Assembly: GCA_009760855.2 (NCBI GenBank)
Contig: WPIO01000029.1
Coordinates: 3,377,501-3,441,500 of the forward strand
Direction of reading: 5' to 3'
Source: Cristatella mucedo
Taxonomy: Eukaryota; Bryozoa; Phylactolaemata; Cristatellidae
Length of the DNA stretch: 64,000 bases
Part shown: positions 815 to 32,006 of the stretch, one piece after another
Layout: each line of letters begins with the position of its first letter
How positions within the stretch are numbered: position 1 is the first letter of the stretch
Notes under the pieces: generated by a model
What the model was told of the DNA's origin: nothing
What the model saw: the letters and a program-made list of their open reading frames with translations, nothing else
Databases searched by the model: none
Position numbers and translations under genes: made by a program

Positions 815-820
815 TTTATT
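815..820 (-). promoter_or_regulatory. Polyadenylation signal overlapping the stop codon
   Basis: AATAAA on the minus strand overlaps the TAA stop at 818-816 of the zinc-finger gene's second exon. It is conserved in copy 2 near 29,534-29,539. A used site here would give an almost absent 3' UTR; a site further downstream is possible. Confidence 0.4.
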
Positions 821-2048
821 CTTCGACCTGCTTCTCCGTCATGAGCCCACTAATAAAAGCCAAGCCGTGAGAGCGAGAGTGACGCCGGAGAGAAGCCTCC
901 GTGTCGAATCTAAGGAAGCAGACGCTGCAACGTCTGTCTGGATCGGCTACAGCATCAGCTGCAGCAGGAGCAATGGTGGCAGCAGGAGCAGCAGGAGTAG
1001 AATCAGCTGCAGCAGGAGGATCAGCACAAATAGCAGCATCAGGAGTAATAGCAGCATCAGGAGTAATAGCAGCATCACGAGTAATAGCAGCATCAGGAGT
1101 AATAGCAGCAGGAGTAATAGCAGCACGAGTAATAGCAGCACGAGTAATAGCAGCACGAGTAATAGCAGCAGGAGTAATAGCAGCAGGAGTAACAGCATCA
1201 GGAGTAATAGCAGCAGGAGTAATAGCAGCACGAGTAATAGCAGCAGGAGTAATAGCAGCACGAGTAATAGAAGCAGGAGTAATAGCAGCACGAGTAATAG
1301 CAGCAGGAGTAATAGCAGCACGAGTAATAGCAGCAGGAGTAATAGCAGCATCATAAATAGTAGCAGGAGTAATAGCAGCAGGAGTAATAGCAGCAGGAGT
1401 AATAGCAGCATCATAAATAGCAGCACGAGTAATAGCAGCAGGAGTAATAGCAGCACGAGTAATAGCAGCACGAGTAATAGCAGCACGAGTAATAGCAGCA
1501 TCATAAATAGTAGCAGGAGTAATAGCAGCACGAGTAATAGCAGCAGGAGTAATAGCATCAGGAGTAATAGCAGCACGAGTAATAGCAGCATCATAAATAG
1601 CAGCAGGAGCAGCAGCAGGAGCAGCAGCAACAGCATCAGCACAAGCAATAGCTGCAGCAGGGGCCATTACATCGGGTTGCTCGCCAACGCCTACCCCTCG
1701 GAGAGGTGGCACTGGTGCTGCTTCCTCACTGCTGCTGGCGAGGGCAGAGCCCGACTGAGCGGGTGTGCCGCTGTCAATGCCTGCAGCCGGAGGCAGGATG
1801 ATGCAGCCTTGGACTGAGCCGGGTAGTGGTACGAAGTACATCTGCTGATAAAGATCGTCGGAAGACAAAATAGCAGATGCTGCAACACGAACTGCAGCAG
1901 CGGCAGCAGCAGCAGCAGCAATCCTGCTGGCAGCTGACTCAGAGGCAGGAGACCCGTGTGAGACTGCCGGTATGCCGGTCCTTACAGTCAGGACGAGGGG
2001 ACATGTCTTGCCCTTGTGAAAACTGCCTCCGTTGCTTTGGGGTAAAGC
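816..2048 (-). CDS. Zinc-finger gene, exon 2 (Ala-Ile-Thr repeat plus C2H2 finger)
   Basis: This frame opens directly after a strong acceptor, a pyrimidine run ending TTTCTTTAG at 2,050-2,049. No ATG is found between there and the conserved LSSDDLYQ segment, so it reads as an internal or terminal exon, 410 codons in phase 0. In order it holds an Ala-rich linker with a run of nine Ala, a conserved stretch containing FVPLPGSVQGCIILPP, a low-complexity domain of 5-residue units AAITR/AAITP (about exon residues 150-340), and a C-terminal C2H2 finger: C374-x2-C377-x12-H390-x3-H394. The protein ends KQVEE. The repeat unit is 15 bp, a multiple of three, so expansion keeps frame. Joined to exon 1 it would give about 860 residues. 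A nuclear DNA-binding role is inferred from the fingers; function is unknown. It could instead be a separate gene starting at the ATG at residue 70. Confidence 0.7.
   Translation of the reverse strand, partial: ALPQSNGGSFHKGKTCPLVLTVRTGIPAVSHGSPASESAASRIAAAAAAAAAVRVAASAILSSDDLYQQMYFVPLPGSVQGCIILPPAAGIDSGTPAQSGSALASSSEEAAPVPPLRGVGVGEQPDVMAPAAAIACADAVAAAPAAAPAAIYDAAITRAAITPDAITPAAITRAAITPATIYDAAITRAAITRAAITRAAITPAAITRAAIYDAAITPAAITPAAITPATIYDAAITPAAITRAAITPAAITRAAITPASITRAAITPAAITRAAITPAAITPDAVTPAAITPAAITRAAITRAAITRAAITPAAITPDAAITRDAAITPDAAITPDAAICADPPAAADSTPAAPAATIAPAAADAVADPDRRCSVCFLRFDTEASLRRHSRSHGLAFISGLMTEKQVEE
1025..1610. repeat. Coding minisatellite, 15-bp unit
   Basis: About 39 units. 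The main forms on the plus strand are AGCAGCACGAGTAAT, AGCAGCAGGAGTAAT and AGCAGCATCATAAAT, with a few 18-bp forms at the left edge such as AGCAGCATCAGGAGTAAT. On the minus strand these read AAITR, AAITP and AAIYD. Variants are interspersed rather than in blocks. All six frames stay open, so overlapping open frames here carry no information. Confidence 0.95.
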
Positions 2049-2734
2049 CTAAAGAAAAGACGTGCACCGATAAATTCTACGACCGTGCCTGCCATAATAC
2101 TGAGCTGTCCCGACGTGACAATTAAACAAGGCCCGTAGCAAACGTAGTTTCGATGGTGGGCATGCCTGGCAGCGAGCTGCAACAAATTTCAGAAGTGAGA
2201 GCGACGAATGTAGAGGCCGGAGTGTGAGCCTAGCACTGAGTGATCGAGCATTTTATGTGGACCGCATGAAATCAGCTATGTGCCAAATATTTAAGCTGTA
2301 ACTTCCCAAGATGCTTGAATATGCAGCAGCCCGAGAAGCAGATTCTTGCCGACATTTCGTCGACAGCAAACTACTTGTCTACTCGAAATGAGCATCTCAA
2401 TCAGATGTCAGCCAAATAGCATGCAAGCTAAATATAAGATGCTCTAATGGCACATTCAAATACCGGTTTAGCACTTCAGCTTTGTTGCCTTTAGCAAGCG
2501 GAGCACCGGTGCTTAAGAATAATAATAGCCAATAGCCAGTAAGTTCTCGTGCATGCTGTGTATTTGCACACACTCAAGTCTCTGGTCTCTGGTCTCTTTC
2601 ATGTGCTCCATATCGAGACAGGTATGACCAGTGGCTGATCCTGGATTTTCATCAAGTGGCAAGACTTGCACAATTTTTAAGTAGGGACAAGAGCCGTAAA
2701 ATATTAAAAATGAGGCAAAACCCGACAAATTCTT

Positions 2735-2850
2735 ATGTATGCAGGCTAGACCAACCTCAAATCCTTTGGAGACCATGCATTTAGTTCGTATGCTCCCAAA
2801 GCCCGGAACTCTTGGGGGTTGCAAATGCCACCTGGCTCCGACACTAGGTG
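2735..2850 (+). mobile_element. L2-A scrap (C-terminal coding remnant)
   Basis: The stretch CTCAAATCCTTTGGAGACCA followed by GCATTTAGTTCGTATGCTCC matches the L2-A C-terminal coding sequence seen at 35,980-36,030, which encodes NLKSFGDRAFSSYAP. It is very short and broken on both sides. Confidence 0.55.
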
Positions 2851-2969
2851 TGACTGTGTCAAAAGCGAGCAATGCTAGCAATGCGCCCTCAGTTTGTAGC
2901 AAAGAAAGCTCGGAGCAAAAATCAAAGCGTAAAATTGAAGCATCTAAACATGCTTCTTGGCACTAGGTC

Positions 2970-3040
2970 TTTACTGCCCAGTCGGTTAGTGCTCGCACTT
3001 CACAACTCTGGGGAGCTTGGGGTCGAGTCGTGCAGCAGCA
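2970..3040 (+). mobile_element. tRNA-like SINE head fragment
   Basis: GCCCAGTCGGTTAGTGCTCG resembles an A box and TTGGGGTCGAGTCGT a B box. No recognisable body follows, only a short CAG run, so family assignment is open. Confidence 0.35.
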
Positions 3041-3937
3041 GCAGCAGAAAATAGTGAAAGCAAAGTTTTGCGATTTCCACAGCTTCGCTTATATATGGAG
3101 CGGCAGATGAGCCGTAGCGGCTTCTGCTGCCGCTCCATATATGGGCAATACACAGTATCGCCAGCAGCTGAATTGGACAGTGCGACCTGGGTCGTGAAGT
3201 GCTACTAGCTAGCGCCTTGCTTCCAAGCGAAGACCCATGGGCGAAAGTCCCAAGGTGAAAGCTGCTCTGGTCTATCGCTGCTACATAACTGAGGCAGTTG
3301 AATCAGCTGCTCTCGAACTTTCAGAGAAAGGCCAGCAGCCTGTTGTCGACGAGAGGAGTGACTAGGGAGCCTTGAGAGCTTTCTGCAATAAATAAATATC
3401 TCACACTTTAACTCTCACTCAAAATCTGATGTTGTCTGTAGGTTCAATGCAAACATCTAAATGAAAAACTATTTAACTAAAATACAATGTGTATGTGCAA
3501 CGAGACACGAGGAAACATGACTGGGAGCTTATCTGGCAAAAAGACTTAACCCAAGTACTCCACCTAGAGTGCTTGCGGCTTCCGGTGTGCAATGGAACCT
3601 AGGCTTCTGGTGAGGTAAAGGCATAGAGAAAATGTAATGCCCGAGTAGAGCAGTCGTGAAGCAATCGGCAGGAAACGGGGCGTTTGCAGCACTCACGTCC
3701 AGAAGCAAGGATCCAGAATAAAATGAAAGATGAGAGCAGCCAGACAGAGTGTGTTCGCAACAGCGACCGGGAACTCTGCTCCCCTCCCCTCCCGCCTGGT
3801 TTTTTCGGAAAAGTAAATGCATCCTCAGCTGCCGACTGCAATGCGGCTGAACCGAGGAACCTGAGTGGGCGCAATGTCGCGATGAGCCACAGCCGGCCTG
3901 GCGACGCCACGACGGAGCCTCGCGATCGGTAGCTCAC

Positions 3938-5287
3938 CAGGTGCAATTTGAGCTGCCCCGAGGTCTGAAACTCTTTGCCGCATCGGTTGCACATGTGGTC
4001 GATGACGGCACGCCCGTGCTCCTGGCGAAGGTGCGCTGCGTAGGCGCGCCGAGAGCGGAACGTCGGCCTGAACTCGTGAGCCTTGACCGGCGGGCAGAGC
4101 AGGCACCGATACACAAGGCTCGCCTCGATCGGACGAGTCACGCACCAGTCGAGCAGCTGCCTGTGATCCTCCACGACTCTGCAGCCCTGCTGAGCCGCCG
4201 ACGTCGTCGGTAGCTCGCTCGGCGACCCGACGGCACCTTGTCCGTCACGGCGGCCGCGGCACGTGCTGCCACACATGTACACGCCGTTGGGTCTGGCCTC
4301 GGCGCACGACGACTCGTTGGCGCCCAGAGTGTGCTCTCGGAACAGCTCCTCCGAGTCAAACATCTGCTCGCACTCGGAGCAGTGCCACCAGCGGCGAGCA
4401 CATCGAGCCATCAGCCAATGCTGCGGCCTGCTCATCCAGTGCTGCTCCAGCAGCTCCACGGTGGCGAATGTGTCCGAGCAACCGCCGCACGCATGGGCCA
4501 GCTCGTGGCTGCCGTGCAGGCACCGCCAGAGGGCATGTTTGCGAAACGTGGCCAGGTCGCCAGGTATTGTAGTGCCGCACTCGGGGCAGACGAACGGCCG
4601 CGTGCCACTGTGGATGCGCAAGTGGGCGCTGAGGGCGCACTTCGTAAACAGGACGCGGCTGCAATGAGGATCCACGCAGACGTAGCGCTGCACCATCGAA
4701 GCGGCCGTCGGTGGCTCGCTGATGTGCGAGCGCAGGCTCTGCCTGTCCTTGAAGGACATTCGGCACTCTGAGCAGCTGACAAGTCTGGCTGCAGGAGAGG
4801 CTGCAGGGGAGGCTGCAGGGGAGGCTGCAGGGGAGGCTGCAGTGGAGGCTGCAGGAGAGGCTGCAGGAGAGGCTGCAGGAGAGGCTGCAGGAGAGGCTGC
4901 AGGCAGCGCAGCCAAGCCAGGCCCTGCTGCTTCAGCAGCAGCAGTGATCATGACGAGGACAGGTTTCAACATCGGCTTCTTAGCGACGGGAGGGGCAGGT
5001 GCCTTGGGCAAGATGGGCCTCAGCCGTTTTCCAGGCTGGGGTTTGGGTGCAACTGGCGGCTGGAGCGACTGGACAGGCGGTTGGCGAGTCGGAGCCTGGC
5101 ACGACGGAGAGCTTGTGTCAGTGGCAGCTGGCACACAGGCCTCAGGGGCGGCAGCGGCGCTACCTGGAACGGTGGAATGCTTGCTGCCGCCTGTCGCCCC
5201 GCCCCTCGATTTCTTTGGAGTCTTCCGGTTCTTCTTATTCGTCTGCTCAGAGCCGTTGCCCTGAGGCACATCGTCGGCAGGAGGCAT
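3938..5287 (-). CDS. C2H2 zinc-finger protein, exon 1
   Basis: The ATG at 5,287 has A at -3. The 450-codon exon ends at a GTGAGC donor; the open frame continues past it only into intron. Order of parts: a basic KKNRKTPKKSR stretch (residues 18-28, likely nuclear localisation), a Pro/Ala/Lys-rich region (40-128), an Ala-Ala-Ser-Pro repeat (129-167), then seven finger-like units. These are C172/C175/H188, C204/C209/H222/H226, C234/C237/H251, C267/C270/H283/H290, C303/C306/H319, C395/C398/H419/H424, and C433/C436/H449, the last cut by the donor. Several fingers have unusual His spacing or lack the final His, so not all may bind zinc. It probably splices to 2,048-816. A TATA box lies about 590 bp upstream. 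Role in gene control is inferred from domains; targets are unknown. No transposase or reverse-transcriptase motif is fused to it. Confidence 0.75.
4788..4905. repeat. 12-bp coding minisatellite
   Basis: About nine tandem GAGGCTGCAGGA units inside exon 1. On the minus strand they encode Ala-Ala-Ser-Pro. This repeat is missing in copy 2 because it falls in the deleted part. Confidence 0.9.
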
Positions 5288-5875
5288 GATTTATGCCTGG
5301 CACCGAGCAGTAAGCCGGTGGCAAGGACACTGGAGTGTCAGCGTCCTCTTAGTGACTGCCTCTCAGCGAGGGCTGCTCCTTCGGTTTACTCGGCCTGCAA
5401 TGGCAAGAAGAAACAGGAGGCTCACAGTCGGGAGGAGAAGGTAGGAGGAAGGGGAGAAGGGAGAGGGGAAAAGGACGGGGATAGGGGACTGGGAGAGAGC
5501 GCTGGGAGAAGGGGAAGCCACTGCCTACCATCTCGTCCATTACCCTCTAAGACATGTTCAGCTTTGGTTGTCTGCCGGCTAGATCGACTATCTCTGCTCG
5601 TTCCTAGGTCTCTACACGAGCTGCTTAATTGACGTGACACGCTTCTTCAAGATTGTGCCTGACGAAGTTGGGAGAGCGGCATCCCTAGAGCCAGTATGCC
5701 TGCTGGATGCAGGCATTCACTGCCTGAACCTGGCACTCTCCCGTCTCTCCGCTGAGAGCTATTTCACTCGTGCTACTCGAGGCTCACTCTGCCGTGGGCA
5801 ATGCATGCACGACTTGCCTGCGCCCTAGACAGCAGAGCAAGAGCAGGTGACTTGAGATAGCCCATTCGATCTTCC
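5288..5875 (-). promoter_or_regulatory. 5' flank or 5' UTR of the zinc-finger gene
   Basis: Non-repetitive stretch between the start codon and the TATA box. The part 5,288-5,480 is shared with copy 2, where it is GA-rich from about 5,403. The part 5,523-5,875 is absent from copy 2. I see no open frame of note. Confidence 0.4.
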
Positions 5876-5883
5876 TTTATATA
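5876..5883 (-). promoter_or_regulatory. TATA box for the zinc-finger gene
   Basis: The minus strand reads GCTATATAAAGG. A start site is expected near 5,850, giving a leader of about 560 nt. It lies 80 bp inside the end of the GA tract and has no counterpart in copy 2. Confidence 0.45.
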
Positions 5884-5966
5884 GCACTGCCAAGCCGAAA
5901 CGAACCGAGTGCAATCGTTTAGCGCTGGCGCACCTCAGCTGACTGCAACCGCAACCGAACGAGAGA

Positions 5967-6003
<37 letters not shown>

Positions 6004-6008
6004 AGAGA

Positions 6009-6050
<42 letters not shown>

Positions 6051-6429
6051 ACACAGACAGAGAGCCAGACAGACGGAGTGACAGACAGAAAGAGAAACAT
6101 GAAGGCAGATAGAGGGACAGAGAGTGAGAGAGACGAGCGAGAGAGACAAAGACACAGAGATGAAGAGAGAAGAAAAGATATAGACACAGACAGAGACAGA
6201 CAGAAAAAGACAGACAGAGACAGCAAGAGGCAGAGGGGGAAAAAGACAGACAGAGACAGCAAGAGGCAGAGGGGGACAAAGGGAGCCAGAGCGAGCCAAA
6301 GAGAGACAGCGACAGAGAGAGACAGCAACAGAGGGAGACAGCAACAGAGGGAGACTGCAACAGAGGGAGACTGCAACAGAGGGAGACTGCAACAGATGGA
6401 GACTGCAACAGAGGGGGACAGAGAGACAG

Positions 6430-7565
6430 ACAGAGAAAGACGCAGGCAGCTAGAGGGAGATACAAAGACCAAGATAGCAACAGAGGGAGACAGCAACAGA
6501 AAGAGACAGCAACAAAGGGAGAGAGTGACAGGGGAAGACAGCGACAGAAAGAGACAGCGACTGAGAGGCAGCAACAGAGAGAGAAAGAGAGAGAAGATAG
6601 AGAGACAAAGACAGAGAGAGACAGACAGAGACAGCAAGAGACAACGACAGAGAGAGACAGCGACAGAGAGAGACAGCGACAGAGAGAGACAGCGACAGAG
6701 AGAGACAGCGACAGAGACAGAGACAGAGAGAGAAAAACAGAAAAACGTGGCGAGACAGAAACGCAGAACGAGAAAGAGCAAGTGACGATAGCAATAAACA
6801 GAGAGAAAGGGAGACAGAGAAACAGACAGAGACGGACAAGAAAAGACAGACGGAGAGAGACAGACAGAGACAGGGAGAGACAGAAGGAGACAGTGACAGA
6901 GGGAGACAGCGACATATGGGGACAGCGACAGAGGGTGAGAGCGACATATCGGGACAGCGACAGAGGGTGACAGCGACAGAAAGAGAACCAGGCAGCTAGA
7001 TGGAGAGACAGAGAGAGACAGGGAGAAACAGACACAGAGATGGAGACCGGGAGAGAGTGGCAGAGGGAAACAAAGAGGCTGAGAAAGATAGATAATAGAG
7101 TGAGCGACAGATACAGCGAGATAAAGATAAAAAGAAACAGAAAGATAGAAAGAGAGAGCGAGAAAGAACAAGTGGCGATAGCAAGAAAGAGAGAAAGAGA
7201 CAGACAGACACAGGGAGAGAAACAGAAAGAGAGACGGGGAGGACAGAGAGAGAGACGGACAGAAACAGTGAGAGAGAGAGAGAGCGAGAGGGAGAAAGAA
7301 AGAGAAAGAAAGACAGAGGGAGAGAGAATGAGAGAGAGGCGAGCGATAAAGTGAGAGCGAGAGAAAAGAGAGAGAAGAGAGAGACAGATAGGAAGAAGGA
7401 AGAGAGAGAGAGAGACACAAAGGCAATTGGAGACACAAGAGAGAAACAGAGATAAAGAGAGCGAGATAAAAAGGCAGAGTGAGACACAGAGAAAGAGACA
7501 GGGAAGCAATTTGAGACAGAGTGAGAGAGAGAGAGAGAAGAGAGGGGGACCGAGAGAGCAGAGGC

Positions 7566-7603
<38 letters not shown>

Positions 7604-8642
7604 AGAGAGGGGGACCGAGAGACAGGAAGAGAGAGAGAGACAGAAACAGAGAGATAGAGAGAGACATAGCGATAGAGACAGAGAGGTAGACAGACAGGAC
7701 GAGAGAGGAGAGACAGTGAGACAATGAGACAAACCAGGTGCAGGGAGATAGACAGAGACAGACTGAGAGAGACAGAGATAGAGAAAAACCGAGATATAGA
7801 GACAGAGACAGGAAGAGAGAGGGGGAGAAGAAGAGACAGGGAAAATGGAAGACACGGAGACAAAGAAACACAGACAGGGGCAAAGAGGCAACAGGTGACA
7901 GAGAAAGACAAGCAGGGAGAGAGGGAGAGAGCAGTAGAGAGAGGGAGAGAGAGAGAGAGAGAGAGAGAGGGTAGGGAGGGAGCCGGAAACAGCAGAGGCA
8001 GAGACAGAGATAGAGTGACACAGAAAAAAGACAGAAAGAACTGACACAGGAAAAACATCAGAAAGAAGCAATAGGGAGTCCGCTGAGAGATAGAGACAGA
8101 AAGAAGGGGAGAGATAGAGACAGAGACTGAAACAGAAAAATCCAGAGATAGAGAGAGAGAGAAACATTACGATAGAGACAGAGGCAGGTAGACAGACAGA
8201 ATGAGAGCGGAGAGACATTGAGATAAAAGCAGAGACAAGGAGATAGACAGAGACATAGATTGAGAGAAACAAAGATATAAAGAGAGAGAGAGAGGCAGCT
8301 AGAGGTAGACAGAGAGAGGGAGATAGCGATAGTGGGAGACATTGACAGAGGGAAACAGTGACTGGAAGAGACAGCGACTGAGAGAAGTAGTGACAGTGAG
8401 GCAGTGACAAACAGACAGAAACAGAGACAGCGGCAGTGAGTGACAGTGACAGAGGGAGACAGCGACAAAGAGACAGAGGGACAGACAGAGAGACACCGGC
8501 AGCTAGAGGGAGACACAAAGACCAAGATAGCAACAGAGCGAGATAGCTACAGAAAGAGACAGCAACAAAGGAAGACAGCGACAGAGGAAGACAACGACTG
8601 AAAGAGACAGCGACTGAGAGGCAGCGACTGAGAGGCAGCCAC

Positions 8643-8708
<66 letters not shown>

Positions 8709-8717
8709 AGAGAGAGA

Positions 8718-8778
<61 letters not shown>

Positions 8779-8896
8779 CACAGACAGTGAGAGAGAAGAC
8801 ACAGACAGAGAGACACAGACAGACAGAGACAGCAAGAGACAACGACAGCAAGAGACAGCCACAGAGAGAGACAGCGACACAGAGAGAGACAGCGAC

Positions 8897-8927
<31 letters not shown>

Positions 8928-9926
8928 GACAGCGACAGAGGGAGACAGCGACAGAGGGAGACAGCGACAGAGGGAGACAGCGACAGAGGGAGACAGCGAC
9001 AGAGGGAGACAGCGACAGAGGGAGACAGCGACAGAGGGAGACAGCGACAGAGGGAGACAGCGACAGAGGGAGAAGCAGGCAGCTAGAGAGAGACACAGGG
9101 AGAGATAGGTAGATAGAGAAAGAGAGAAACAGACACAGAGCCAGAGACTGGGAGAGAGTGACAGAGAGAAACAAAGAGGCAGAGAAAGAAGTAGAAAGAG
9201 AGATAGAGCGACAGACAGAGACAAAGATAAAAAAAAACATAAAGACAGAGGGAGAGAGAGAGAGAAACAAAGAGCAAGAAAGAGCAAGTGACAATAGCAG
9301 GAAACAGAGAGCAAGAGAGACAGACACAGAGAGAAACAGATGCAGGGAGAGACGGGGAGAAAGAGAGACAGACACACTGGGAGAGAGAAAGACAGAAAGA
9401 GAGAAAGAGGGGGAGAGACAAAAAGACAGAAGAGACACTGAGGGAGAGAGCACGAGAGAGAGAGAGAGAGAGGGCGAGCGAGCAAGCGAGAGCGAGAGAG
9501 AAGGAGAATGAGAGAGCGGGAGGGAGAGAGATACAACGACAAAGAGAGAGATGCAGAGAGAGACACAAAGGCAATTGGATACACGGGAGAGAAATAGAGA
9601 GATAAAGAGAGCGAGATAAAAAGACGCAGTGAGAGATACAGTGAGGTAATTTGAGACAGCGAGAGAGAGGGAGACTGAGAGAGACAAGGGGATAGAGACC
9701 AAGTCAGAATCAGCAACAGAAAGAAACAGAGAGATAGAGAGACATAGCGATAGAGACAGAAAGGTAGACAGACAGAACGAGAGCAGAGAGGCAGTGAAAC
9801 AGTGAGACAAACCAGAGACAGGGAGATAGACAGAGACGGAGATAGACAGAGACGGAGATAGAGAAAAACCGAGATAGAGAGACAGAGATAGAAGAGAGAG
9901 AGAGAGAGAGAGAGGGAGAATGAAAG

Positions 9927-10003
<77 letters not shown>

Positions 10004-10540
10004 AGCAGAGATGCAACAGGAGACAGAGAAAGAGAAACAGAGAAAGAGAGAGCAATAGAGAGAGGGGAGCAAGCAAGAGAGAGAGAGAGAGAGGAAGGTG
10101 AGAGATGGAAAGAGCCGAGATAGAGAGACAGAGAAAAAGACAGAGATAGAGAGAGAGAAGGGAAGCGATAGAGACAGAAGCAGGATCAGAAACAGGAAAA
10201 AACAGAGAGATAGAGACATTGCGATAGAGACAGAGAGATAAACAGACAGAATGAGAGCGGAGAGACTGAGAGATAATGAGACAAAGTCAGAGACATGAAG
10301 ATAGACAGAGACATAGACTGAGAGAGACAGAGATAGAGAGAAACAGAGACAGCAAGAGACAAGAAGAGACAGCAAAGGAGACAGAAGGAGTTGCAAAAGG
10401 AGAGAAAGAGAGAGAAGGAAAGACACAGACAAACAGAGACAGAGAAACACAGAGAGAGAGAGACCGAGAGAGGGAAAGAGACACAGAGAAAGAAAGAGAA
10501 AAAGAGTCAGGGGACAAGAAGAGAGAGAGACTTTAAGAGG
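6430..10540. repeat. Higher-order duplication in the GA tract, about 2.07 kb unit
   Basis: Rare non-GA landmarks recur in the same order: GGCAGCTAGA at 6,445 and 8,498 and again at 6,991 and 9,078; AAACCAG at 7,731 and 9,809; CATTACGATAG at 8,165 and CATTGCGATAG at 10,217. Offsets are 2,052-2,087 bp. Within each unit a block containing GCGATAGAGACAGA and AGACAGACAGA words is repeated about 490 bp apart (7,650/8,155 and 9,735/10,210). Confidence 0.8.
8934..9073. repeat. 16-bp minisatellite in the GA tract
   Basis: About nine near-perfect copies of GAGGGAGACAGCGACA in a row, the most regular part of the tract and so probably the most recently expanded. Confidence 0.9.
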
Positions 10541-11504
10541 CAGACAGACTGGGAGACCGACAGAGAGTGGAGACAGACAGAGATAGGGCCACACAAAGAG
10601 ACATAGAGAAAGAGACAGACAGATAAAGAGAGACAAAGAGAAAGGGAGACGGAGAGAGAGAGATGGAGAAAAGGAAACAGAGCCACGGGTGGAGGTCATC
10701 AAACTCAAGCTTAAGCTGCAACGATAGGACACTCAGGGTGCAGTGGGACTTGCCATGAAAAGTGAGAGCACCGCAAGCCCTTGTGCCCAGCCACCGAGCC
10801 TAGCCGATTGGAAACATTTCTGGTCAAGTTTAGCTAGTGCCAGACAGAATCTGTAGGAAAAAACCCAATTACCGAGGAAAACCTGTGAGACCAGGGGGGT
10901 GCCATTCCTTGAAAATCTGCCCGACTTTGGGTCTAGTTTTTGGAAGCTTGCTGTCATTTTTTTGACCGACGTGATACGCAATTTCACTCGACAGTATTTC
11001 AAACATTATTGGTTTGCACGTGTGGTGGGAGACATGTACCGGATATTGCTTTTGCTTTTTGAAAGGCCCGGGTCCATTACTGTCTATGCCTGGAACGAGT
11101 GGGATTTCACTACGTGCTGGATTGAAATACCTGCCATGTTAACAGAGATCTCAATCGGGCTTGGTGTGCATGTTCGTAGATACAGTCTTCAAATAGATGT
11201 GCTTCACTAGCTCTGCGCCCACGATTGCCGAGGGGGCTGTCATCAAGGAAACTCAATCGGTGGAAAAGCCCAATTGCGGCATTTGCCCTGCAAATGGCGC
11301 AGCACGAACCATCTGAGAAGAAGCAGTACCATAGTGAAGTACCACAAAGAAAGCACTGACACCCCTAGCCCAATGTAATTATCAGCCGGCCATATCTAAA
11401 CTGGCTAATCTAGATTTTAAATTTTGGCAGCACGCATTTCGCACAAACAAACTCCAGACAAGCAACAGTAAAATGCTCAGCCGCCTGGCACCAAAATCAT
11501 GGTA

Positions 11505-12183: not shown

Positions 12184-13000
12184 CATAACTGCGTCTGAGC
12201 ATCTCCCACACCTCGGGCGCATTGGTAGCACTCGCAGCACTTGCTGCGAGTGGAGTAGCGAGTCGCCGGAAGTCTCTGGAAGCAAGCATGCAGGCAGACA
12301 GACAGCAAAGGGCTGGCGCTGCCGAGTCGAACTCCCGACACTGTGCGCGCTCTCTCGCAGGGCTCAGAGAGGACGGTGCAGCTGCATCGAGAAGACGCTC
12401 GAGTTGCCAGCACAGAAGCCTAGACCGAGAGAGCTGGACGTGGCTGGCAAGGAACTGGGCCTTGAAGTCAACTAGGAGCCGCGGCAGCGGACGAGCACGG
12501 TAGCACAGTCGGCCGGTCGGCGACCGTATGCTCGACCAACGGTGGCTGCGGATAAAGCTACCCGAAAGACCGGCAAGCAGCGGTGCTGTCAGTGAGGCGA
12601 GCGCTTCTAGCTGCTGCCGCCGCATTTGGGAAGAAGCGCTACTTCTGCGTGATGCAACCACTTGTTTCTTACCGAAGCAAAGCAGCGTGCTAACCTCGGA
12701 GGCTCAAGAAAGGTATGCTGCATGAGAGAACCATGTGCCAGGCGATGAAAACGGTCAACACTATCTGCCCGCCTGCTCCTTAGTGGACTGCACTGCAAAG
12801 CCAGGCAGCTGCGGTTTCGGTCGCATGGATACTCGGCGAGGTGTCGCCTGCATCACGACCGCCCCTCACACGCCCCTTGGGTTTACGCATGCGCGCCCGC
12901 GAAGTCGTCTGCTCGCGCGAGTCTGCTTGCGCTAGCGAACATCGCTGCATGCTTGCATTAACTGTGGCTGCAAGCCAAGGAATGTGTGCAGTTCTGCAAG

Positions 13001-13010
13001 TATATATAAG
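13001..13010 (+). promoter_or_regulatory. Candidate TATA box, plus strand
   Basis: TATATATAAG is followed at 13,125 by a donor-like GTGAGTGTCC, which is also kept in copy 2 (34,520). This could be a core promoter with a short non-coding first exon pointing right. The TATA itself is degraded in copy 2 (34,400). No downstream coding exon was identified. Confidence 0.25.
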
Positions 13011-13194
13011 GGGATGGTCACTATAAGGGGAAGAACACGAAGTAGTCGTACAACTTTTTACCTTAGCAGCATCTCACCCAGCTCGCTGCCCCACGTGTGA
13101 ACGTTTTGCCGGCGTGTTCCTGCGTGAGTGTCCTTTTGTTAGCAGCAACGTGACTCGTCGACTGCTATAGCCACAAAGTGCTTTTCAAGCCCAG

Positions 13195-13395
13195 AATTTG
13201 GGTGTGATTATACGAATAATAATAATAGCACGTTTGCATAGTTCCCTCAGAGAATTGTATCTCTTTGTGGGCACTTTGCATATGCTGTAAAGGAAGCTTC
13301 GCGAATGGTTGGTGGCAACACGCACAATGTCAACAAGCATTACATGGTTAGAGTGACATACACAGTGTCAACCTATAGAAAATGGTTAGTGATAA
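13195..13395 (-). mobile_element. L2-A type 3' end, reversed
   Basis: On the minus strand it reads CAAAGTGCCCACAAAGAGAT, TTCTCTGAGGGAAC, then TATTATTATTATTCG. It is shared with copy 2 at 34,660-34,860, so it was present before the duplication. Confidence 0.65.
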
Positions 13396-13545
13396 AGCTT
13401 CTAGGTAGTGCATTACTCTAACCGTAAGGCATCGATTTCCGAAAAGCAAAGGCAGCAGGTTTGCATTATAGGCAGGATGTGAAAGTATTTTAACACATAG
13501 CTGCATAATACATGGCCGTGCACAAAATTCTACATCAACATATTG

Positions 13546-18480: not shown

Positions 18481-18487
18481 TTATAGT

Positions 18488-20120
18488 AGCAATAATAATA
18501 ATAACACACTTGTAAATCCACCCTCAGAGAACTCAATCTCTTTCTAGGCATTTTACATTTGATGCAAAGGAAACACGATCGAATGGTTAGTAAGAGCATG
18601 CTCGATAAAAAAAAAAGAATAACATGGTTAGGGGTGACATGCACAGGGTCAGCATGCAAGTCTAGGGACAACATGCATAGTGTCAGTATGCATAAGCACA
18701 TGAAGGACCATTCACTGGGACCCACTAAACGCTGTGCTAAATAGGTGTTTTTAATTTCTTTTTAAGTATTGTCAAATCAGAAGATGTCGTGATGCAAGTC
18801 GGGAGTGAGTTCCAGGCTTTGAGAACATACGAACTAAATGCACGGTCTCCACAGGATTTGAGGTTTGTATGAGGGATTGGTAAACTGTTGGATTCCAAAA
18901 AGCAGGTGGTGTGATGCCTAGCCTGGTGTGGCAATTGATCTGATAGGTAGACTGGAGCCAAAGTATGGAGGGACATAGAAGTGAGTGACAAAATCTTGAA
19001 GTCGATGCATTGCTTGACTGGAAGCCAGTGCAGGTCGGCGAGAAGTGGTGTGATATGGCAACTGCGATGCTCACGACAGACAAGCCTGGCTGCCGAGTTT
19101 TGCACCAGTTGGAAGCGCCTGATTGCACAGGCCTGCAAGCAGTGAGTCACACAAGTCAAAACGGGATGTCATGAATGCATGGACCAAATTAGATGTGGTA
19201 TCCTTTTCTAAACAAGCCCGAATTTTAGCAATGTTATATAGCTGAAAGTAGGCAGACTTGAATGTGGAGCTCATGTGGCCGTCTAATGAAAGGTCACTTT
19301 GGAACATGAGACCTAGATTTCGTGCAGATTCAACAAGAGATATGCTGGCAGAGCCGATTTTGAACGTTAGCCTTTCCAATTTCTGATTTAAACTTGGTTT
19401 TCTGATTACTAGTAAGTTAACTTTATCACCATTCAATTTAAGAAAATTTGCTGCCATCCATGTATGGATGTCATCAATACATGCAGCAAGGGAGCTGAGA
19501 GAATTGGATGTGCTCGAGGTCTGGGAGGGATCAAAGCAAAGGTACAACTGAGTGTCATCCGCATAGAAGTGAAAGACTCGATTGCGCTTGGCAATCACAT
19601 CAGCAAGAGGGAGAGTATAAACCGTGAAAAAAAACAGGAACAAGCACGGAGCCCTGAGGTACCCCATATATTATAGATTCCTCGGATGATCTTTGTCCAT
19701 TCACCTCAATACTGTGGAGTCTCCCATTGAGATAGGACCTGAACCATTGCAAAGCACCACCAGTAATTCCCAGGCGGATGAGAGGCGCTCAAGAAGGGCT
19801 TGGTGATCGATTATATCAGAAGCTGCCAAAAAATCAAGCAAAACAAGCAGGAATTTTCTACCCATGTCTGCATTCCTAAGTAGGTTGTTGTACATCCGAA
19901 GCAATGCTGACTGTCGAGTGATTAGCTTAAAGCCGGACTGGAACTTACTAGCAAGGTTTGAAGCTTAAATATATGAGTTCAGCTGGTCTGGTACGACTCG
20001 TTCCAGTGTCTTTTATAAGAATGGTAGAGGGGAGATTGGGCGATAGTTGCTCAAGTTCTCTTGGTCTAGTGTTACTGAGAAGTGGCCTGACTACAGCCTT
20101 TTGAGAGGTGCTGAGACATG
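18488..20120 (-). pseudogene. L2-A retrotransposon, broken reverse transcriptase
   Basis: The longest L2-A remnant. Read on the minus strand, the frames give LLVLLDFLAASDIIDHQALL (reverse-transcriptase motif A region), then a GYLRAPCLFLFFFTVYTLPL region, FYADDTQLYL (the catalytic YADD box, near 19,570), SLAACIDDIHTWMAANFLKL (thumb side) and the C-terminal HITPLLADLHWLPVKQCIDF and CGDRAFSSYVLKAWNSLPT. These are hallmarks of the L2/CR1 group. The coding line is broken by frameshifts into at least three frames. The 3' UTR and a TTATTATTATTATTG tail end at about 18,488. The 5' end and endonuclease are missing. Confidence 0.88.
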
Positions 20121-20522
20121 CCTTGAGGCTAACAACATATTAATTATGTTAGCTATGCATGGCAGCAGCAGATCAATGCATCATAGAAGCAGGACAGTGG
20201 GAATAGGATCCAAAGGGCTGGTTGTCTTCGTCTTCTATGGAACATAGGGCCCTTGGCCAGCCGACTAGCAAAACCTGCATCTGAAAAGACGACTGGGCAG
20301 ATGCCATCAGCCTGGGAGCCGTCGAGTCATCATCCATAGCAGCAGTAGCAGCCATCGATACAGCAGAGATGGCAGCAGCAGCCCCAGTAGCAGGATCATG
20401 ACTGGCCATTGGTTGGCTGGAGTGTGCAGTCGTTGTGCGGGATCCTGTGAACAGACGTCAATCCTGCTGCTGCTGCTGCTGTTGGGCAGATGCCGTCAGC
20501 CTGGAAGCTGTAGAGTAACCAA

Positions 20523-20662: not shown

Positions 20663-20664
20663 AA

Positions 20665-24334: not shown

Positions 24335-24415
24335 ACTGCAAGCAGTGGTGACAGCCATTATCTGCCGCTATATAAATGATGCTGCTAAAACAGTTAAACT
24401 TGTTTATTATTATAA
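24335..24415 (+). mobile_element. SINE family 2, 3' fragment
   Basis: CTGCAAGCAGTGGTGACAGC followed by GCCGCTATATAAATG and a TAAAACAGTTAA end match the 3' half of 40,089-40,266. Confidence 0.5.
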
Positions 24416-24689
24416 AGGCACGGGCCGTGAGTTCTGGAAAAGTGAAGTGCAGAATCTAGGCACGATGTCACAAAAGCGTTAACTAGCCTAGCTACCATGC
24501 GCTCATCTAAGCAGATTTTGATTTGACTCTACAGGAGTGATGCTAGCTCAGCCAATCTTGATTGTCAGAATTTCCAACTTTCAGCTGACAGTAGATTTTC
24601 CTATAACTATCTAAAACATAACACCAAACACACTCGAGCTTGCTTTTTTCCATAGGGCTGCCACAGCAATGCTGGCATATGTATTGTTG

Positions 24690-25295: not shown

Positions 25296-26590
25296 CCAAA
25301 ATTTTAGTCTCAATATCGCTATTACTAGCAGTACTAGTTGATACTACTGAGAGTGCGGTACGGGCGATAATACATGAGCATACAGAGACCGCGTCATTGG
25401 CTGCAGTTAGACGCAGCGCTTCGACGCCAGGCGACATGAAGCGCTGAGGCCCGCCGCGGTGGCTGCCGCCGCCAGGGCATAAGCACTTCGCTGGCAACGG
25501 GCACTCACGCTCGCCTCACTTACTCACTCACTCACGCTCTTACTCACGCTCTTTGGGTTGTCTTTGGCGGTTGCTGCGCAAGTCACGGCTCCGCCGCTTT
25601 GCGTCGAAGCAGAAAGCCCGAGCAACTCGCGCGCGAGTCCTGAACGCGACTATAGCTACAAGTGCCGCCGCGCGCACACAGTGGGCTACCGATGACGCCG
25701 ACGCTGCTCGGCCGCTCTTTCGCTGGGCTTCGTAACGCCGATCTTCCTCCGCGGGCTGCCGCAGCCGCCGCCTGCCCGCGATCTAGCCGAAGCGCTGGAC
25801 GCCAGTATACCGATTCTACTTGCATCTACCGCCAGCCGCCGCCACTCCGCCGTGAGAATTTCTCTGCGAGTTCGCCAATCTCGGAAGCCTCTTGCGGGGC
25901 GCGCGAAATTCCCGTCGAGGCCGAAATCTCTGCGCTTCGCGCCCGGTTGTAGCGAGGTGCGCACGACCGGACCCAACGTCCGTCCGTGCGGATGAATTTT
26001 CCCGAGTGGCCAACGGACGGATTCCGATATGATGGACGGCCGTTCGTGTTATAGTAGCTTACTGAGCGGCCACCAAGACACTCGAGCGTTGCACGTTTCG
26101 GCGGTAAATCGAGCTAGCGTCGAACTACCGACCGCCCGCCGCGGCGTTCGGTCGGTCGGGGAGACGATAAGAACCGCCGGAGCCGCGACGGCGCCCTAGC
26201 GCCGGCGGACCGTCGGGACCTCAGAAGATCCGGTACTCCCGTTGCGCTGGATCGTTTTTCGAAAAACCGCGTACGGCAAAGCAATCATTACAAAGCACGA
26301 TGGGCATTGGGCTGCGTTTCGTAACCAGTAGCCAGTTTATGGTAGCCACCTCTTCCCCCCCCCCCCACCGGGCTATCGCCGGACCCCGTGCCCGCCAGCC
26401 CGGCTAGCGGGCTCTTTGAGCAGGCTCTTTGAACGCCCGGCTCTGAAGGTTCCTGAAGGTTCCGGCCCAGAGCGGTTCGGTTACCGCCCTGCCAGCCTGC
26501 AAGCAAGCGTCGGTGTGCTCGTGTGGACTGGTGGCAGCCCGCTATGGCCTGACCTCGCCATCGTCGACGACGGCGAAGTCGGACCACGGT
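25296..26590. other. CpG-rich segment with no supported gene
   Basis: From about 25,440 CG dinucleotides are very frequent. A CTCACTCACGCTCTTACTCA repeat (25,505-25,550) and a poly-C run (26,356-26,367) are present. Short frames in all directions lack motifs. It could be an unmethylated island or a diverged CG-rich part of the adjacent satellite. Confidence 0.45.
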
Positions 26591-27540
26591 TCGACGAATT
26601 AACGTCACCCACTCTCCAATTAAGCTTAAGTCGATCAGAACTCGGCGGCGGCGTGGAGCTCCAATTTCGAGCGAATGTTTTACCACGCCGTCGTTATAAT
26701 GTGTCCACAAAATGTTCGCGTTATTGCGCTCACTTGCTCTCGTGCAAACGATCCGCTAAGACTCGCGTCTGTACCGCAATCCGCCGCCGCGAGATCCGCC
26801 TCAAATCCACCAGAAATCGGCGGCTTCGCGAAGCTCCAACTTTAGGACTGTTCGGAACGCTTCTCCATATTTCAAGCGTACATCCAAAATTCGCGCCAAT
26901 TCAAGAAGGCTTTCTCACACAGCCCACTTGCAAATTAATGTGGCGTCCGGGGCCGATTCAGCAATCCACCTCATTCCACCCCAAAGCGAAATAATTCCTT
27001 TGCGATGAGCTCTTTTTATGGCACATAGCAGTGTACTGTGCGAAAAGTGTGCTCGTCAAATATTTCTTGACTTTGCAAGGGCTTTCTTGTGCAATGCGCA
27101 GAAATCGATTGCAATGGCCCCATGAAATACCGCAATCCACTTTAATCGGCCACATGATGCCCCGAAAAAAGGTAGACTCCGATTTTTATTGCATATCAAG
27201 GCGTGCTGTGCCAAGTCGGCAACCATGTAAATTAAAGCCTTTGTGCACGCGCGATCAATGCCAATGCACTGCAATCGCCTAAAATTGCCTGGGCAAATAC
27301 CAATATCCACTCTAATACACTGCAAATCATACTGAAATCGTCAACGAAAAGCTACAATTTACACTGCTTATAACGTGAGACTCGTTTTAAAGGGCCCTAC
27401 AAAATTTCGCACCTTTTCACGTGCCTGTTCTCAGGAAATGCATTACAATCGACAGCAACTGCCTGATCCAAACCGCCATCCACCACAAAACGACAAGAAA
27501 TCGCACAATAGAGTGGCTACAGAGTAGCTTTGTAGCTTGT
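26590..27540 (-). repeat. 170-bp satellite, array A (minus orientation)
   Basis: The core, read on the minus strand, is like GCCATTGCCGTCGATTGC followed by GTGCATTG. It recurs at about 27,437, 27,262, 27,092 and 26,934 (spacings 175, 170, 158 bp). Further GC-richer units are seen as GAGCTCCAATTT- and AGCTCCAACTTT-like blocks at 26,660 and 26,845. The same family is at 62,590-64,000 on the other strand. Confidence 0.8.
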
Positions 27541-27739
27541 AAATTTTGAAACTCGACCAGTCCTTCACGAATCAACTGGAAATTTGAAATATGAGTTTTC
27601 GTCTTAGCGTAGACATCTTCCTGGTTGTTTATTTCTGATTTCGGTGGGATAAGTGTTGCTATACATGTCCTTGATTGCAGAAAATATAAAGCTCCAGAAC
27701 ATTCGATGGCATGTATAGCAACACTGCACGTTGCACCAG

Positions 27740-27900
27740 CTGTAAGCACCTGATTGCACAGGCCGGTAGACCAGCAAGCAGTGAGTAACAGAAGTTCAGA
27801 CTGGATGTCACTAATGCATGGACCAAATTAGATGTGGTATCCCTGGCTAAACAAGCCCAAGTTTTAGCAATGTGAAGTAGCTGAAAGTAGGCAGACGTGA
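27740..27900 (-). mobile_element. L2-A internal fragment
   Basis: It matches 19,112-19,262 with few changes (for example ATGCATGGACCAAATTAGAT and TAGCTGAAAGTAGGCAGAC). It is truncated on both sides. Confidence 0.8.
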
Positions 27901-28173
27901 CTGCCGAGACTTGACTTTGGAACTTTCATTGGTAACTTGTTCAACCAATTAGTCAAACGAAGCCACTTTCGGTCGGTTGCTGACCCCCTAGTCCTCGGGC
28001 TCCCTGGCACACTCTCTCGGCTATCACAATGCTCGCTCGCCCCCACTAGCCTTGCCTAAGGCATCTTCCTCAGTTTGCCTAGACGTCAGGCAGCCTCAGT
28101 TCGTGCATTCTGGCTGCTCGGCCGACGATTATAGGAACAGTTACCTATAGACCACGCCCCTCGCTGTCATATT

Positions 28174-28869
28174 AGCTGTCTCCCACAGTGGCTTGTAAAA
28201 AATTTAACTAGCTCTTTAGTTCAGTCTCGGCTTGATTATTGTAACTCCCTTTTGGCTGGGCTGCCAAAGAAAGCTATTATGCCATTACAGCGGACTATGA
28301 ATATGGCTGCAAGGCTGGTCTTCAAGTCCCAGCGATTTGAGCACGTGTCACCTCTGCTGAAAGAGCTAGGATGGTTGCCGGTTGAGCAAAGGATACAGAG
28401 CAAAGTTCTTACGCTGACCCACAAGGCCTGCCACGGCTTGGCTCCTTCATACCTAGCTGAGCTGCTGCATCAGTTTCAGCCTGTTTGCACCCTCCGGTCC
28501 TGTGTGGACAATAAATTAGCTGTCCCATTCCTCCACTTAAAGACAGTTGGTGACAGAAGCTTTAGCTCTGCAGGTCCTAGACTGTGGAACTCGCTTCCAC
28601 AATTCTTACGCAACGATATCTACTCTCCAACTGCCGACTATGGCACATCTTTTTCAGCGGTCCTGAACTGCTACTTTTATGCTACTCACTACCTCAACTG
28701 CTCTCCTGACTCTGCTATGCTTCCCACTTTCTCTTTGTTGCGTGAGACGAAGTCTGTTGGCTACCGAATGCATACCGAAAGGCGTTTAGGCTGTGAGTGC
28801 GCTATAGAAAACTCTCCTGCGTAACACCCACATGGTCTTTATGACTTTGCGGAGTTACAGACGGAGATA
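28174..28869 (+). mobile_element. L2-B, recent 5'-truncated insertion
   Basis: A 696-bp insert flanked by CATATT at 28,168-28,173 and 28,870-28,875. Duplication copy 1 has the single uninterrupted CATATT at this point, which is a true empty site. One clean frame runs from the left edge to the stop at 28,824: SLVQSRLDYCNSLLAGLP, RTMNMAARLVFKSQRFEHVS, LGWLPVEQRIQSKVLTL, YLAELLHQFQP, GDRSFSSAGPRLWNSLPQFL and a Cys-containing end RRLGCECAIENSPA. These are the last 215 or so residues of an L2 polyprotein. The catalytic domain is absent, so this copy is dead on arrival despite its clean frame. Confidence 0.93.
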
Positions 28870-28872
28870 CAT

Positions 28873-28960
28873 ATTGTCACTCGTCTGTAATGTCAATGTA
28901 AAGTGCCTAGATAGAGATTGAGTTCTCTGATGGCACTATATCAAATGTATTATTATCTTT
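28873..28960 (+). mobile_element. L2-A type tail fragment
   Basis: Partner of the tail at 150-250 in copy 1, with no visible difference in the shared part. Confidence 0.6.
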
Positions 28961-29188
28961 GCACACTCACCAGCCGGACTTGCATAGCACGAGCCCTCCC
29001 CGACCACCCGAGCAGAGCGTGGGCAATCGAGCCAGAGCATTGAGCAGTAAATGCCAGGAGCATGGACATACTAAAGGTGAACCACCGGGGCCACCGTCAA
29101 GCTCTCAGGTACATTGAGCTACCCCCCCCCCCCTGTACGATTAGAGGCTAGTACGGCCAAGGTCGGTCGTGGTCTGGTATCCTGCTAT

Positions 29189-29350
29189 GCTGGTTTGGTC
29201 CAGCGGTTAAGGTGCTCGCCCCCCCCCCCCCGACCAAGGTCTGGCTGAGGTCGTGGGCTCGAGCACCGAGGCATATGAGAAGCGCCTGAATAGAGATTAA
29301 GTTCACTTAGGGCACTGTACAAATGAATTATATTTTATTTTATTTTTTTA
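29189..29350 (+). mobile_element. SINE family 1 (duplicated copy)
   Basis: Duplicate of the SINE at 473 carried by the segmental duplication. The internal poly-C run is longer here, the main visible difference. Confidence 0.85.
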
Positions 29351-29534
29351 TCGTGGGCACAGCGAGTTCCCTATATGAGCAGCCTTGCTTGGGTGGGGCA
29401 GGCAAGTCAAGCAGCAACTACGGCTGCTGGGTGATCACAGAGCACGAACCGCCGGTAAGCTGAACACAATTATAATGGCCAAAGCAAAACTGGACGTCAC
29501 CGAAAAGCAGCCGATCTCGGCGGCAAGTCAGAAT

Positions 29535-32006
29535 TTATTCTTCGACCTGCTTCTCCGTCATGAGCCCACTAATAAAAGCCAAGCCGTGAGAGCGAGAGTG
29601 ACGCCGGAGAGAAGCCTCCGTGTCGAATCTAAGGAAGCAGACGCTGCAACGTCTGTCTGGATCGGCTACAGCATCAGCTGCAGCAGGAGCAATGGTGGCA
29701 GCAGGAGCAGCAGGAGCAGAATCAGCTGCAGCAGGAGGATCAGCACAAATAGCAGCATCAGCACAAATAGCAGCATCAGCAGTAATAGCAGCATCAGCAG
29801 TAATAGCAGCATCACGAGTAATAGCAGCATCACGAGTAATAGCAGCATCACGAGTAATAGCAGCATCACGAGTAATAGCAGCATCACGAGTAATAGCAGC
29901 ATCACGAGTAATAGCAGCATCACGAGTAATAGCAGCATCACGAGTAATAGCAGCATCACGAGTAATAGCAGCATCACGAGTAATAGCAGCATCACGAGTA
30001 ATAGCAGCATCACGAGTAATAGCAGCATCACGAGTAATAGCAGCATCACGAGTAATAGCAGCATCACGAGTAATAGCAGCATCACGAGTAATAGCAGCAT
30101 CACGAGTAATAGCAGCATCACGAGTAATAGCAGCATCACGAGTAATAGCAGCATCACGAGTAATAGCAGCATCACGAGTAATAGCAGCATCACGAGTAAT
30201 AGCAGCATCACGAGTAATAGCAGCATCACGAGTAATAGCAGCACCACGAGTAATAGCAGCACCACGAGTAATAGCAGCACCACGAGTAATAGCAGCACCA
30301 CGAGTAATAGCAGCACCACGAGTAATAGCAGCACCACGAGTAATAGCAGCACCACGAGTAATAGCAGCACCACGAGTAATAGCAGCACCACGAGTAATAG
30401 CAGCACCACGAGTAATAGCAGCACCACGAGTAATAGCAGCACCACGAGTAATAGCAGCACCACGAGTAATAGCAGCACCACGAGTAATAGCAGCACCACG
30501 AGTAATAGCAGCACCACGAGTACTAGCAGCACCACGAGTACTAGCAGCACCACGAGTACTAGCAGCACCACGAGTACTAGCAGCACCACGAGTACTAGCA
30601 GCACCACGAGTACTAGCAGCACCACGAGTACTAGCAGCACCACGAGTACTAGCAGCACCACGAGTACTAGCAGCACCACGAGTACTAGCAGCACCACGAG
30701 TACTAGCAGCACCACGAGTACTAGCAGCACCACGAGTACTAGCAGCACCACGAGTACTAGCAGCACCACGAGTACTAGCAGCACCACGAGTACTAGCAGC
30801 ACCACGAGTACTAGCAGCACCACGAGTACTAGCAGCACCACGAGTACTAGCAGCACCACGAGTACTAGCAGCACCACGAGTACTAGCAGCACCACGAGTA
30901 CTAGCAGCACCACGAGTACTAGCAGCACCACGAGTACTAGCAGCACCACGAGTACTAGCAGCACCACGAGTACTAGCAGCACCACGAGTACTAGCAGCAC
31001 CACGAGTACTAGCAGCACCACGAGTACTAGCAGCACCACGAGTACTAGCAGCACCACGAGTACTAGCAGCACCACGAGTACTAGCAGCACCACGAGTAAT
31101 AGCAGCACCACGAGTAATAGCAGCACACCACGAGTAATAGCAGCACCACGAGTAATAGCAGCACCACGAGTAATAGCAGCACCACGAGTAATAGCAGCAC
31201 CACGAGTAATAGCAGCACCACGAGTAATAGCAGCACCACGAGTAATAGCAGCACCACGAGTAATAGCAGCACCACGAGTAATAGCAGCACCACGAGTAAT
31301 AGCAGCACCACGAGTAATAGCAGCACCACGAGTAATAGCAGCACCACGAGTAATAGCAGCACCACGAGTAATAGCAGCACCACGAGTAATAGCAGCACCA
31401 CGAGTAATAGCAGCACCACGAGTAATAGTAATAGCAGCACCACGAGTAATAGCAGCACCACGAGTAATAGCAGCACCACGAGTAATAGCAGCACCACGAG
31501 TAATAGCAGCACCACGAGTAATAGCAGCACCACCACGAGTAATAGCAGCACCACGAGTAATAGCAGCACCACGAGTAATAGCAGCACCACGAGTAATAGC
31601 AGCACCACGAGTAATAGCAGCACCACGAGTAATAGCAGCACCACGAGTAATAGCAGCATTATAAATAGCAGCAGAATTAGCAGAAGCAATAGCTGCAGCA
31701 GGGGCCATTCCATCGAGGTTCTTGCCATCGCCAATCCCTCGGAGATTCTATTGGCTCTGCTTCCTCACTGCTGCTGGCGAGTGCAGAGCCCGACTGGACG
31801 GGTGTGCTGCTGTCAATGCCTGCAGACGGAGGCAGGATGATGCAGCCTTGGACTGAAATGGGTATCGGTACGAAGTACAGCTCCTGATGAAGATCGTCGG
31901 TAGACAACATAGCAGATGCTGCAACACGAACTGCAGCATCGGCAGCAGCAGCAATCCAGCTGCCTTGCCCTTTTGAAGGCTGCCTTCTTTTGCTTTGGGG
32001 TAAAGC
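29535..32006 (-). pseudogene. Zinc-finger gene copy 2, exon 2, frameshifted
   Basis: The acceptor TTTCTTTAG (32,008-32,007), the LSTDDLHQ stretch and VQGCIILPPSAGIDS are conserved. A net 2-bp loss between the Glu-Glu-Ala codons and the Met-Ala-Pro codons (about 31,709-31,765) throws the frame into a stop at 31,677. Only 109 exon-2 codons are read, without the repeat or the last finger. More frame changes lie inside the repeat, at 31,128, 31,428 and 31,530. The 3' end with the CSVC finger and stop (29,535) is essentially identical to copy 1. A truncated protein of about 369 residues is the most this copy could make from exon 1 plus exon 2. Confidence 0.75.
29745..31665. repeat. Expanded minisatellite, 18-bp unit
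   Basis: About 105 units. Variants come in clean blocks from left to right: AGCAGCATCACGAGTAAT (about 29,815-30,239), AGCAGCACCACGAGTAAT (30,240-30,515), AGCAGCACCACGAGTACT (30,520-31,085), then AGCAGCACCACGAGTAAT again to 31,660. Three length errors occur in the last block. Read in the ancestral frame the unit would encode AAITRG. Confidence 0.96.

Follow-up and report, generated by a model that had tools for sequence, protein, structure and literature searches.

Tandem copies of a predicted zinc-finger gene in the bryozoan Cristatella mucedo carry minisatellite arrays of differing unit length, probably translated in one copy only

The window analysed here, 64,000 bp of contig WPIO01000029.1 of Cristatella mucedo (assembly GCA_009760855.2, positions 3,377,501 to 3,441,500), holds two tandem copies, 28.7 kb apart, of a predicted C2H2 zinc-finger gene, a relative of the ZNF592 type, and in both copies the last exon (exon 2), on the minus strand, contains a minisatellite array. 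In copy 1 the array is built mainly of 15-bp units and lies in an open frame, whereas in copy 2 it is built mainly of 18-bp units in homogeneous blocks and the predicted frame stops before reaching it. A sequence-only reading of the window had proposed a gene duplication, and the two tandem copies bear this out. We consider it likely that the duplication was followed by loss of the frame in copy 2, by re-amplification of its array, and by ectopic conversion between the copies. The features on which this rests are the following, in window coordinates.

3938 to 5287, minus strand: predicted exon 1 of copy 1, from ATG to GT splice donor in an open frame, with C2H2 zinc fingers and a 12-bp coding repeat.
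816 to 2048, minus strand: predicted exon 2 of copy 1, from AG acceptor to stop, with array 1 and one C-terminal C2H2 finger.
1029 to 1610, minus strand: array 1, four 18-bp units at the left edge and 33 15-bp units in interspersed variants, reading AAITP, AAITR and AAIYD.
32464 to 33243, minus strand: predicted exon 1 of copy 2, in frame, 570 bp shorter than that of copy 1 and without the 12-bp repeat.
29535 to 32006, minus strand: region of copy 2 matching exon 2, with a frame stop at predicted residue 369 upstream of array 2 and the C-terminal finger beyond the stops.
29748 to 31663, minus strand: array 2, 102 18-bp units, mostly in homogeneous blocks, and single units of 20, 24, 21 and 15 bp.
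31116 to 31135, minus strand: a frame-shifting 20-bp unit inside array 2, from the unit split and the reading of the frame.

The predicted protein of copy 1 is 860 amino acids (aa) long, with the ATG at 5287, a GT donor after 3938, an AG acceptor before 2048 and the stop at 816; the splice is in phase 0, the frame is open through array 1, and Pfam matches C2H2 fingers (zf-C2H2) in the product. Array 1, at 33 x 15 plus 4 x 18 bp, thus has the in-frame tandem units, of about 10-100 bp and a multiple of three in length, that mark a coding minisatellite, and it is a putative variable-number tandem repeat (VNTR). Array 2 does not qualify, since the frame ends ahead of it and one of its units is 20 bp long. 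The description of a coding minisatellite in the sequence-only reading therefore holds for copy 1, with its 860-aa frame, but not for copy 2; likewise its statement that the unit lengths are multiples of three is right for 15 and 18 bp and fails for the unit at 31116.

Compared with copy 1, the second exon of copy 2 differs between acceptor and array by +1, -76, -6 and -2 bp, of which the first two jointly preserve the frame and the last breaks it, and the predicted protein ends at residue 369, ahead of array 2. This net frameshift and stop constitute the frame disruption in one copy by which a pseudogene copy is recognized. Within the array the 20-bp unit (+2) brings the later units and the C-terminal finger into one frame, but the upstream stops persist. 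Because the frame of copy 2 stops before array 2, and the 20-bp unit shifts it again, the array is probably translated in copy 1 only, and the suggestion that the array of copy 2 is a fast-evolving protein domain fails under this gene model. If the model is right, the stop falls within the last exon; a truncated protein might then still be produced, and array 2 would be 3' untranslated sequence. In the unconverted coding parts the ratio of nonsynonymous to synonymous divergence between the copies (dN/dS) is 1.17 pooled over 141 codons (1.47 over 108 codons of exon 2, 0.49 over 33 codons of exon 1), which fits a loosening of constraint in at least one of the two copies.

Splitting the arrays exactly at the unit start gave 38 segments for array 1 (33 of 15 bp, four of 18 bp at the left edge only, and one 33-bp edge remnant) and 106 for array 2 (102 of 18 bp and one each of 20, 24, 21 and 15 bp). 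The earlier counts of about 39 and 105 units were right to within the treatment of edge units, and the few 18-bp units that had been noticed at the left edge of copy 1 number four. The two chief 15-bp variants of array 1 (13 and 11 units) are intermingled; no run of five or more unit types recurs that would indicate a higher-order repeat, and identical units are adjacent in 6 of 32 cases, with no significant deficit against permuted orders (p 0.18), so that "interspersed" here means non-blocky. Read from the left, array 2 comprises three 18-bp edge units, 24 ATCACG units, 16 ACCACG/AAT units, 32 ACCACG/ACT units, a block of 30 of ACCACG/AAT type (27 regular, plus the 20-, 24- and 21-bp units), and the 15-bp unit. 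The Tandem Repeats Finder (TRF) scores of the two arrays are 810 and 3254; in 100 triplet shuffles each, the maximum was 172 against the observed 810 for array 1, and 90 against 2899 observed for a cut-out stretch of array 2. DNA secondary structure was considered as a driver of the arrays and rejected: four 90-base array stretches showed no clear excess of structure over shuffles (z 0.40, -1.72, 1.33 and 1.17), being no better than these in three of the four tests, and the best result was only weak (z -1.72, with 15 of 200 shuffles as good).

The 102 units of array 2 within 29802-31648 contain no singleton substitution, their differences amounting to two block-wide substitutions and three indel units. 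The unconverted flank in exon 2 has diverged by 12%. At half that figure, units as old as the split should have gathered about 110 private substitutions over the 1890 bp. Because none was found, the present content of array 2 is either younger than the duplication or steadily homogenized, which upholds the earlier claim that this array was rebuilt after the copies had separated. The arrangement of the blocks suggests a series of bursts, first of ATCACG, then with ATC changed to ACC, and then with AAT changed to ACT within the ACC block; homogeneity is lower in array 1.

The left edge of both arrays consists of 18-bp units and the right end of both is a 15-bp AT(C/T)ATA unit, and the ATCACG 18-bp unit that is found 24 times in array 2 is also present once in array 1. 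With 15- and 18-bp units present in either array, it is simplest to suppose that the ancestor had mixed units and that the copies went on to amplify different ones, and the "new unit length" proposed for copy 2 is better read in this way. We think it unlikely that an ancestral 15-bp array was rebuilt in copy 2 on a new 18-bp unit and stayed a coding domain throughout. The 15-bp units do prevail in copy 1, the copy with the open frame, but 18-bp units stand in both arrays, a 15-bp unit stands at both right ends, and the frame of copy 2 stops ahead of its array. Nor was an outgroup array found that would polarize the change: none of the three full paralogues inspected in the assembly (L033, L035 and L037) has a long array of this kind, the 15-bp repeat of L037 extending to 1.9 copies of another sequence. 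These paralogues thus do not polarize the unit length, and the change from 15 to 18 bp put forward in the sequence-only reading is not demonstrated.

In the DNA around the arrays, identity between the copies is patchy and changes abruptly.

28870 to 29747, unstranded: near-identical tract matching copy 1 at 156-1028, from the end of a long interspersed nuclear element (LINE) to the array edge, 871 of 873 compared bases.
32158 to 33142, unstranded: identical tract of 985 bp, 100% the same as copy 1 at 3632-4616 (exon 1 and intron).
28174 to 28872, plus strand: LINE fragment, about 700 bp long and confined to copy 2; copy 1 resembles the empty site.

On the left of the array, the 3' side of the gene, there are 871 matches, two mismatches and two length differences in C runs, whereas on its right only 304 of 344 bases match in exon 2 and the first bases of the intron (88%, with indels); the adjoining intron matches at 118 of 136 bases, and the start of exon 1 with its upstream sequence at 284 of 312. 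With bases taken as independent, Fisher tests gave p ~1e-20 for left against right and p ~4e-32 for the absence of differences in the 985-bp tract against 86 in the 792 bp compared elsewhere. That nearly identical DNA on the 3' side of the exon borders on unlike arrays, as the sequence-only reading had it, is confirmed by these counts and by the exact unit split. The ends of the tracts coincide with large differences between the copies, namely the LINE, the array, an unmatched intron stretch and the exon 1 deletion of copy 2. Sharp breaks in identity, and patches of near-identity between otherwise diverged copies, point to ectopic gene conversion between the tandem copies; conversion-like tracts, with one identity break at the array, had no part in the earlier account.

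An alternative source of the break is unequal crossover in the arrays, by which copy 2 would be a hybrid of an old 5' part and the 3' part of copy 1, other copies having then been lost. The sharp change at the array is the breakpoint that such an event would leave, but the internal 985-bp identical tract goes unexplained by it, and the 103 bp past the LINE site are less alike than the tract (3 of 103 differences against 2 of 873, p 0.01); we regard crossover as improbable. The LINE fragment has CATATT on both flanks, and since copy 1 reads as an empty site it probably entered copy 2 after the duplication, although a deletion in copy 1 between two CATATT motifs might also account for the difference. 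The family is large, with 10948 first-look candidates, and among the 40 that were scored, the 39 strong matches besides that of the window stop at query position 712-719, which is the 3' end here.

Errors of the assembler in the length of array 2 or in the frame have also to be weighed, given that near-identical 18-bp units are difficult for error-prone reads and that the three odd interior units all lie in one end block. However, the window contains no N, contigs of up to 15.8 Mb suggest long reads, for which 1.9 kb is short, and the upstream -2 lies in diverged unique DNA outside any repeat, and we give an artefact very little credence.

The history that we favor would then run as follows. 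A ZNF592-type zinc-finger gene on the minus strand would have been duplicated in tandem, its last exon already holding an Ala-rich linker turned mixed minisatellite, with 18-bp units near the finger end and 15-bp units at the other. Copy 1 would have retained its open frame while its array became mainly interspersed 15-bp units. Copy 2 acquired the frame-breaking indels ahead of the array, by which array 2, past a stop in the last exon, would have left the protein frame, and it would then have grown anew from a single type of 18-bp unit, in local bursts that followed one another and left nested homogeneous blocks, slippage or sister-chromatid repair being the likely engine. Ectopic conversion would have wiped out the differences on the 3' side of the array and over 985 bp spanning parts of exon 1 and the intron; one of the tracts would have its end at the edge of the array or inside it. 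We advance tentatively, as rather doubtful, the further proposal that frame loss freed array 2 from coding constraint and that a conversion tract ending in the array seeded the switch of unit.

Several points tell against this history. The +2 of the 20-bp unit cancels the upstream -2, which might hint that the frame is kept by another splice form. A dN/dS near 1 on so short a stretch does not tell whether copy 2 is decaying or copy 1 is changing fast, and the 33-codon piece of exon 1 by itself gives 0.49. Two fingers of copy 1 appear degenerate by eye against the translation of L033, so that copy 1 may not be fully functional either. The 18-bp units common to the left edges could have come by conversion, not from a mixed ancestor. 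Finally, the gene model, expression and array lengths are all based on one assembly.

The interest of the pair is that arrays of one origin, 28.7 kb apart, differ in predicted coding status, so that one can ask by comparison how an open frame affects the length of a minisatellite, its choice of unit and its homogeneity; the pair's best use may be as a translated and a probably untranslated minisatellite of common origin. The sharp change of identity also marks the array as a possible end point of conversion between paralogues. Were released constraint and a conversion-seeded switch to prove true, the pair would amount to a natural experiment on the restraint that translation places on a minisatellite.

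Known systems show parts of this picture. Human CEL has a coding-region VNTR and lies near its pseudogene CELP, with exchange at the 3' end of the gene giving CEL-HYB (PMC5584208), and here too a coding-repeat gene stands beside a pseudogene copy with 3'-end exchange; the protein is another one, however, and CEL-HYB is a population crossover allele, whereas our conversion-like tracts are deduced from one assembly. PRDM9 and PRDM7 likewise combine a zinc-finger gene whose coding minisatellite changes fast with a paralogue in which the array bears disruptive mutations (PMC4874674, PMC3890296), but there the unit is the zinc finger itself (84 bp) and both paralogues keep it, whereas our repeat forms an Ala-rich linker and the two copies have different prevailing unit lengths. 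The block pattern of array 2 resembles that of MSY1 on the human Y chromosome, with long homogeneous blocks such as (1)15(3)42(4)20 and mutation ascribed to synthesis-dependent strand annealing between sister chromatids (PMC2599865), although MSY1 is haploid and has a predicted hairpin, whereas the four folding tests on our arrays gave no clear excess of structure. The MaSp2 silk genes of Argiope are clustered paralogues with coding repeats homogenized within genes and evidence of inter-gene conversion (PMC9779670), a likeness that extends to repeat-bearing paralogues with conversion between genes but not to the size of the cluster, which is large there and here consists of two copies, one of them broken. 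A literature search on repeat-bearing paralogues returned no closer match, which is not proof that none is in print. We would class the pair as a clean example of a phenomenon already known, with CEL/CELP, PRDM9/PRDM7 and the MSY1 blocks as precedents.

Within the 572-Mb assembly no other array with these units was found: all 25 places returned by a search with 15-bp unit pairs lie in array 1, and the 100 returned with 18-bp pairs comprise 98 in array 2 and two in array 1. A search for a dispersed minisatellite family returned 63 rows. Of these, 55 lay outside the window copies, and ten of the latter loci (L042-L051) served to judge it. Their arrays are rich in AGC/AGG, with 3, 6, 9, 15 and 21 among the periods, and have 5 to 447 13-mers each in common with the window arrays. 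They were rejected as relatives, the unit markers AATAGCAGCA and AGTAATAGC occurring 0 times in all ten. One of them, L044, is an array of about 2.9 kb with a 21-bp unit.

The three open-frame paralogues have 40-43% protein identity. L033, on the same contig 1.6 Mb off, is 43% identical over the finger block (tblastn) and has, by eye, a GT donor and an AG acceptor at the corresponding position and in the same phase, so that finger-block homology and splice position are common to it and copy 1; its final finger, by BLASTP on exon 2, is 62% identical to the C-terminal finger of copy 1 over 29 aa. L033 matches PF25412, a ZNF592-like N-terminal finger, at 27.2 bits against a cut-off of 27, and this one near-cut-off match makes it a putative member of the ZNF592/ZNF532/ZNF687 family. 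The Pfam scan found no PF25412 match in the predicted copy 1 protein; among the window products scanned the match is confined to an open reading frame (ORF) at 41693-42937, where it scores 22 bits, under the cut-off. This separate ORF, of 414 aa on the minus strand, has a ZNF592-like N-terminal finger 48% identical to L033 over 56 aa, and its own 24-bp repeat at 41832-42034. L033 carries the ZNF592-like finger in one exon with other fingers, and the ORF may be a split-off part of such an exon or a further gene fragment. L035 and L037, on contig C687, are another tandem pair, 17.8 kb apart, without long arrays.

Searches with the exon 1 protein and with the right and left flanks found no third gene copy with both exons or an array. 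They did find exon 1 finger fragments with internal stops. Contig C23 has two, which in DNA are some 74-75% identical to copy 1 along 466-467 bases, and contig C112 has matches of 75% over 139 bases and 82% over 57 bases. Such degenerate fragments with stops lie at L039:3394-3843, L040:4521-4975 and L041:3627-3808, those of L039 and L040 among stretches that also match window positions 18497-20229. The flanks at L031 and L032 were rejected as further gene copies, having no match to the window exons; their matches are to stretches recurring in the window, except for one of 65% to 26951-27488.

Copy 1 holds a second coding minisatellite at 4787-4903 (12 bp x 9.8 copies, 96% matches), which is gone from copy 2 owing to the deletion in its exon 1. 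Beside copy 1 lies a purine-rich GAGA/GAGACAG repeat of about 4.6 kb (6003-10663), and beside copy 2 a similar stretch of 0.6 kb (33451-34070). Further similarity, in the same order as in the gene copies, occurs at 12904-13533 and 34291-35004 (71% and 88%), so that the duplicated block may reach beyond the purine repeat.

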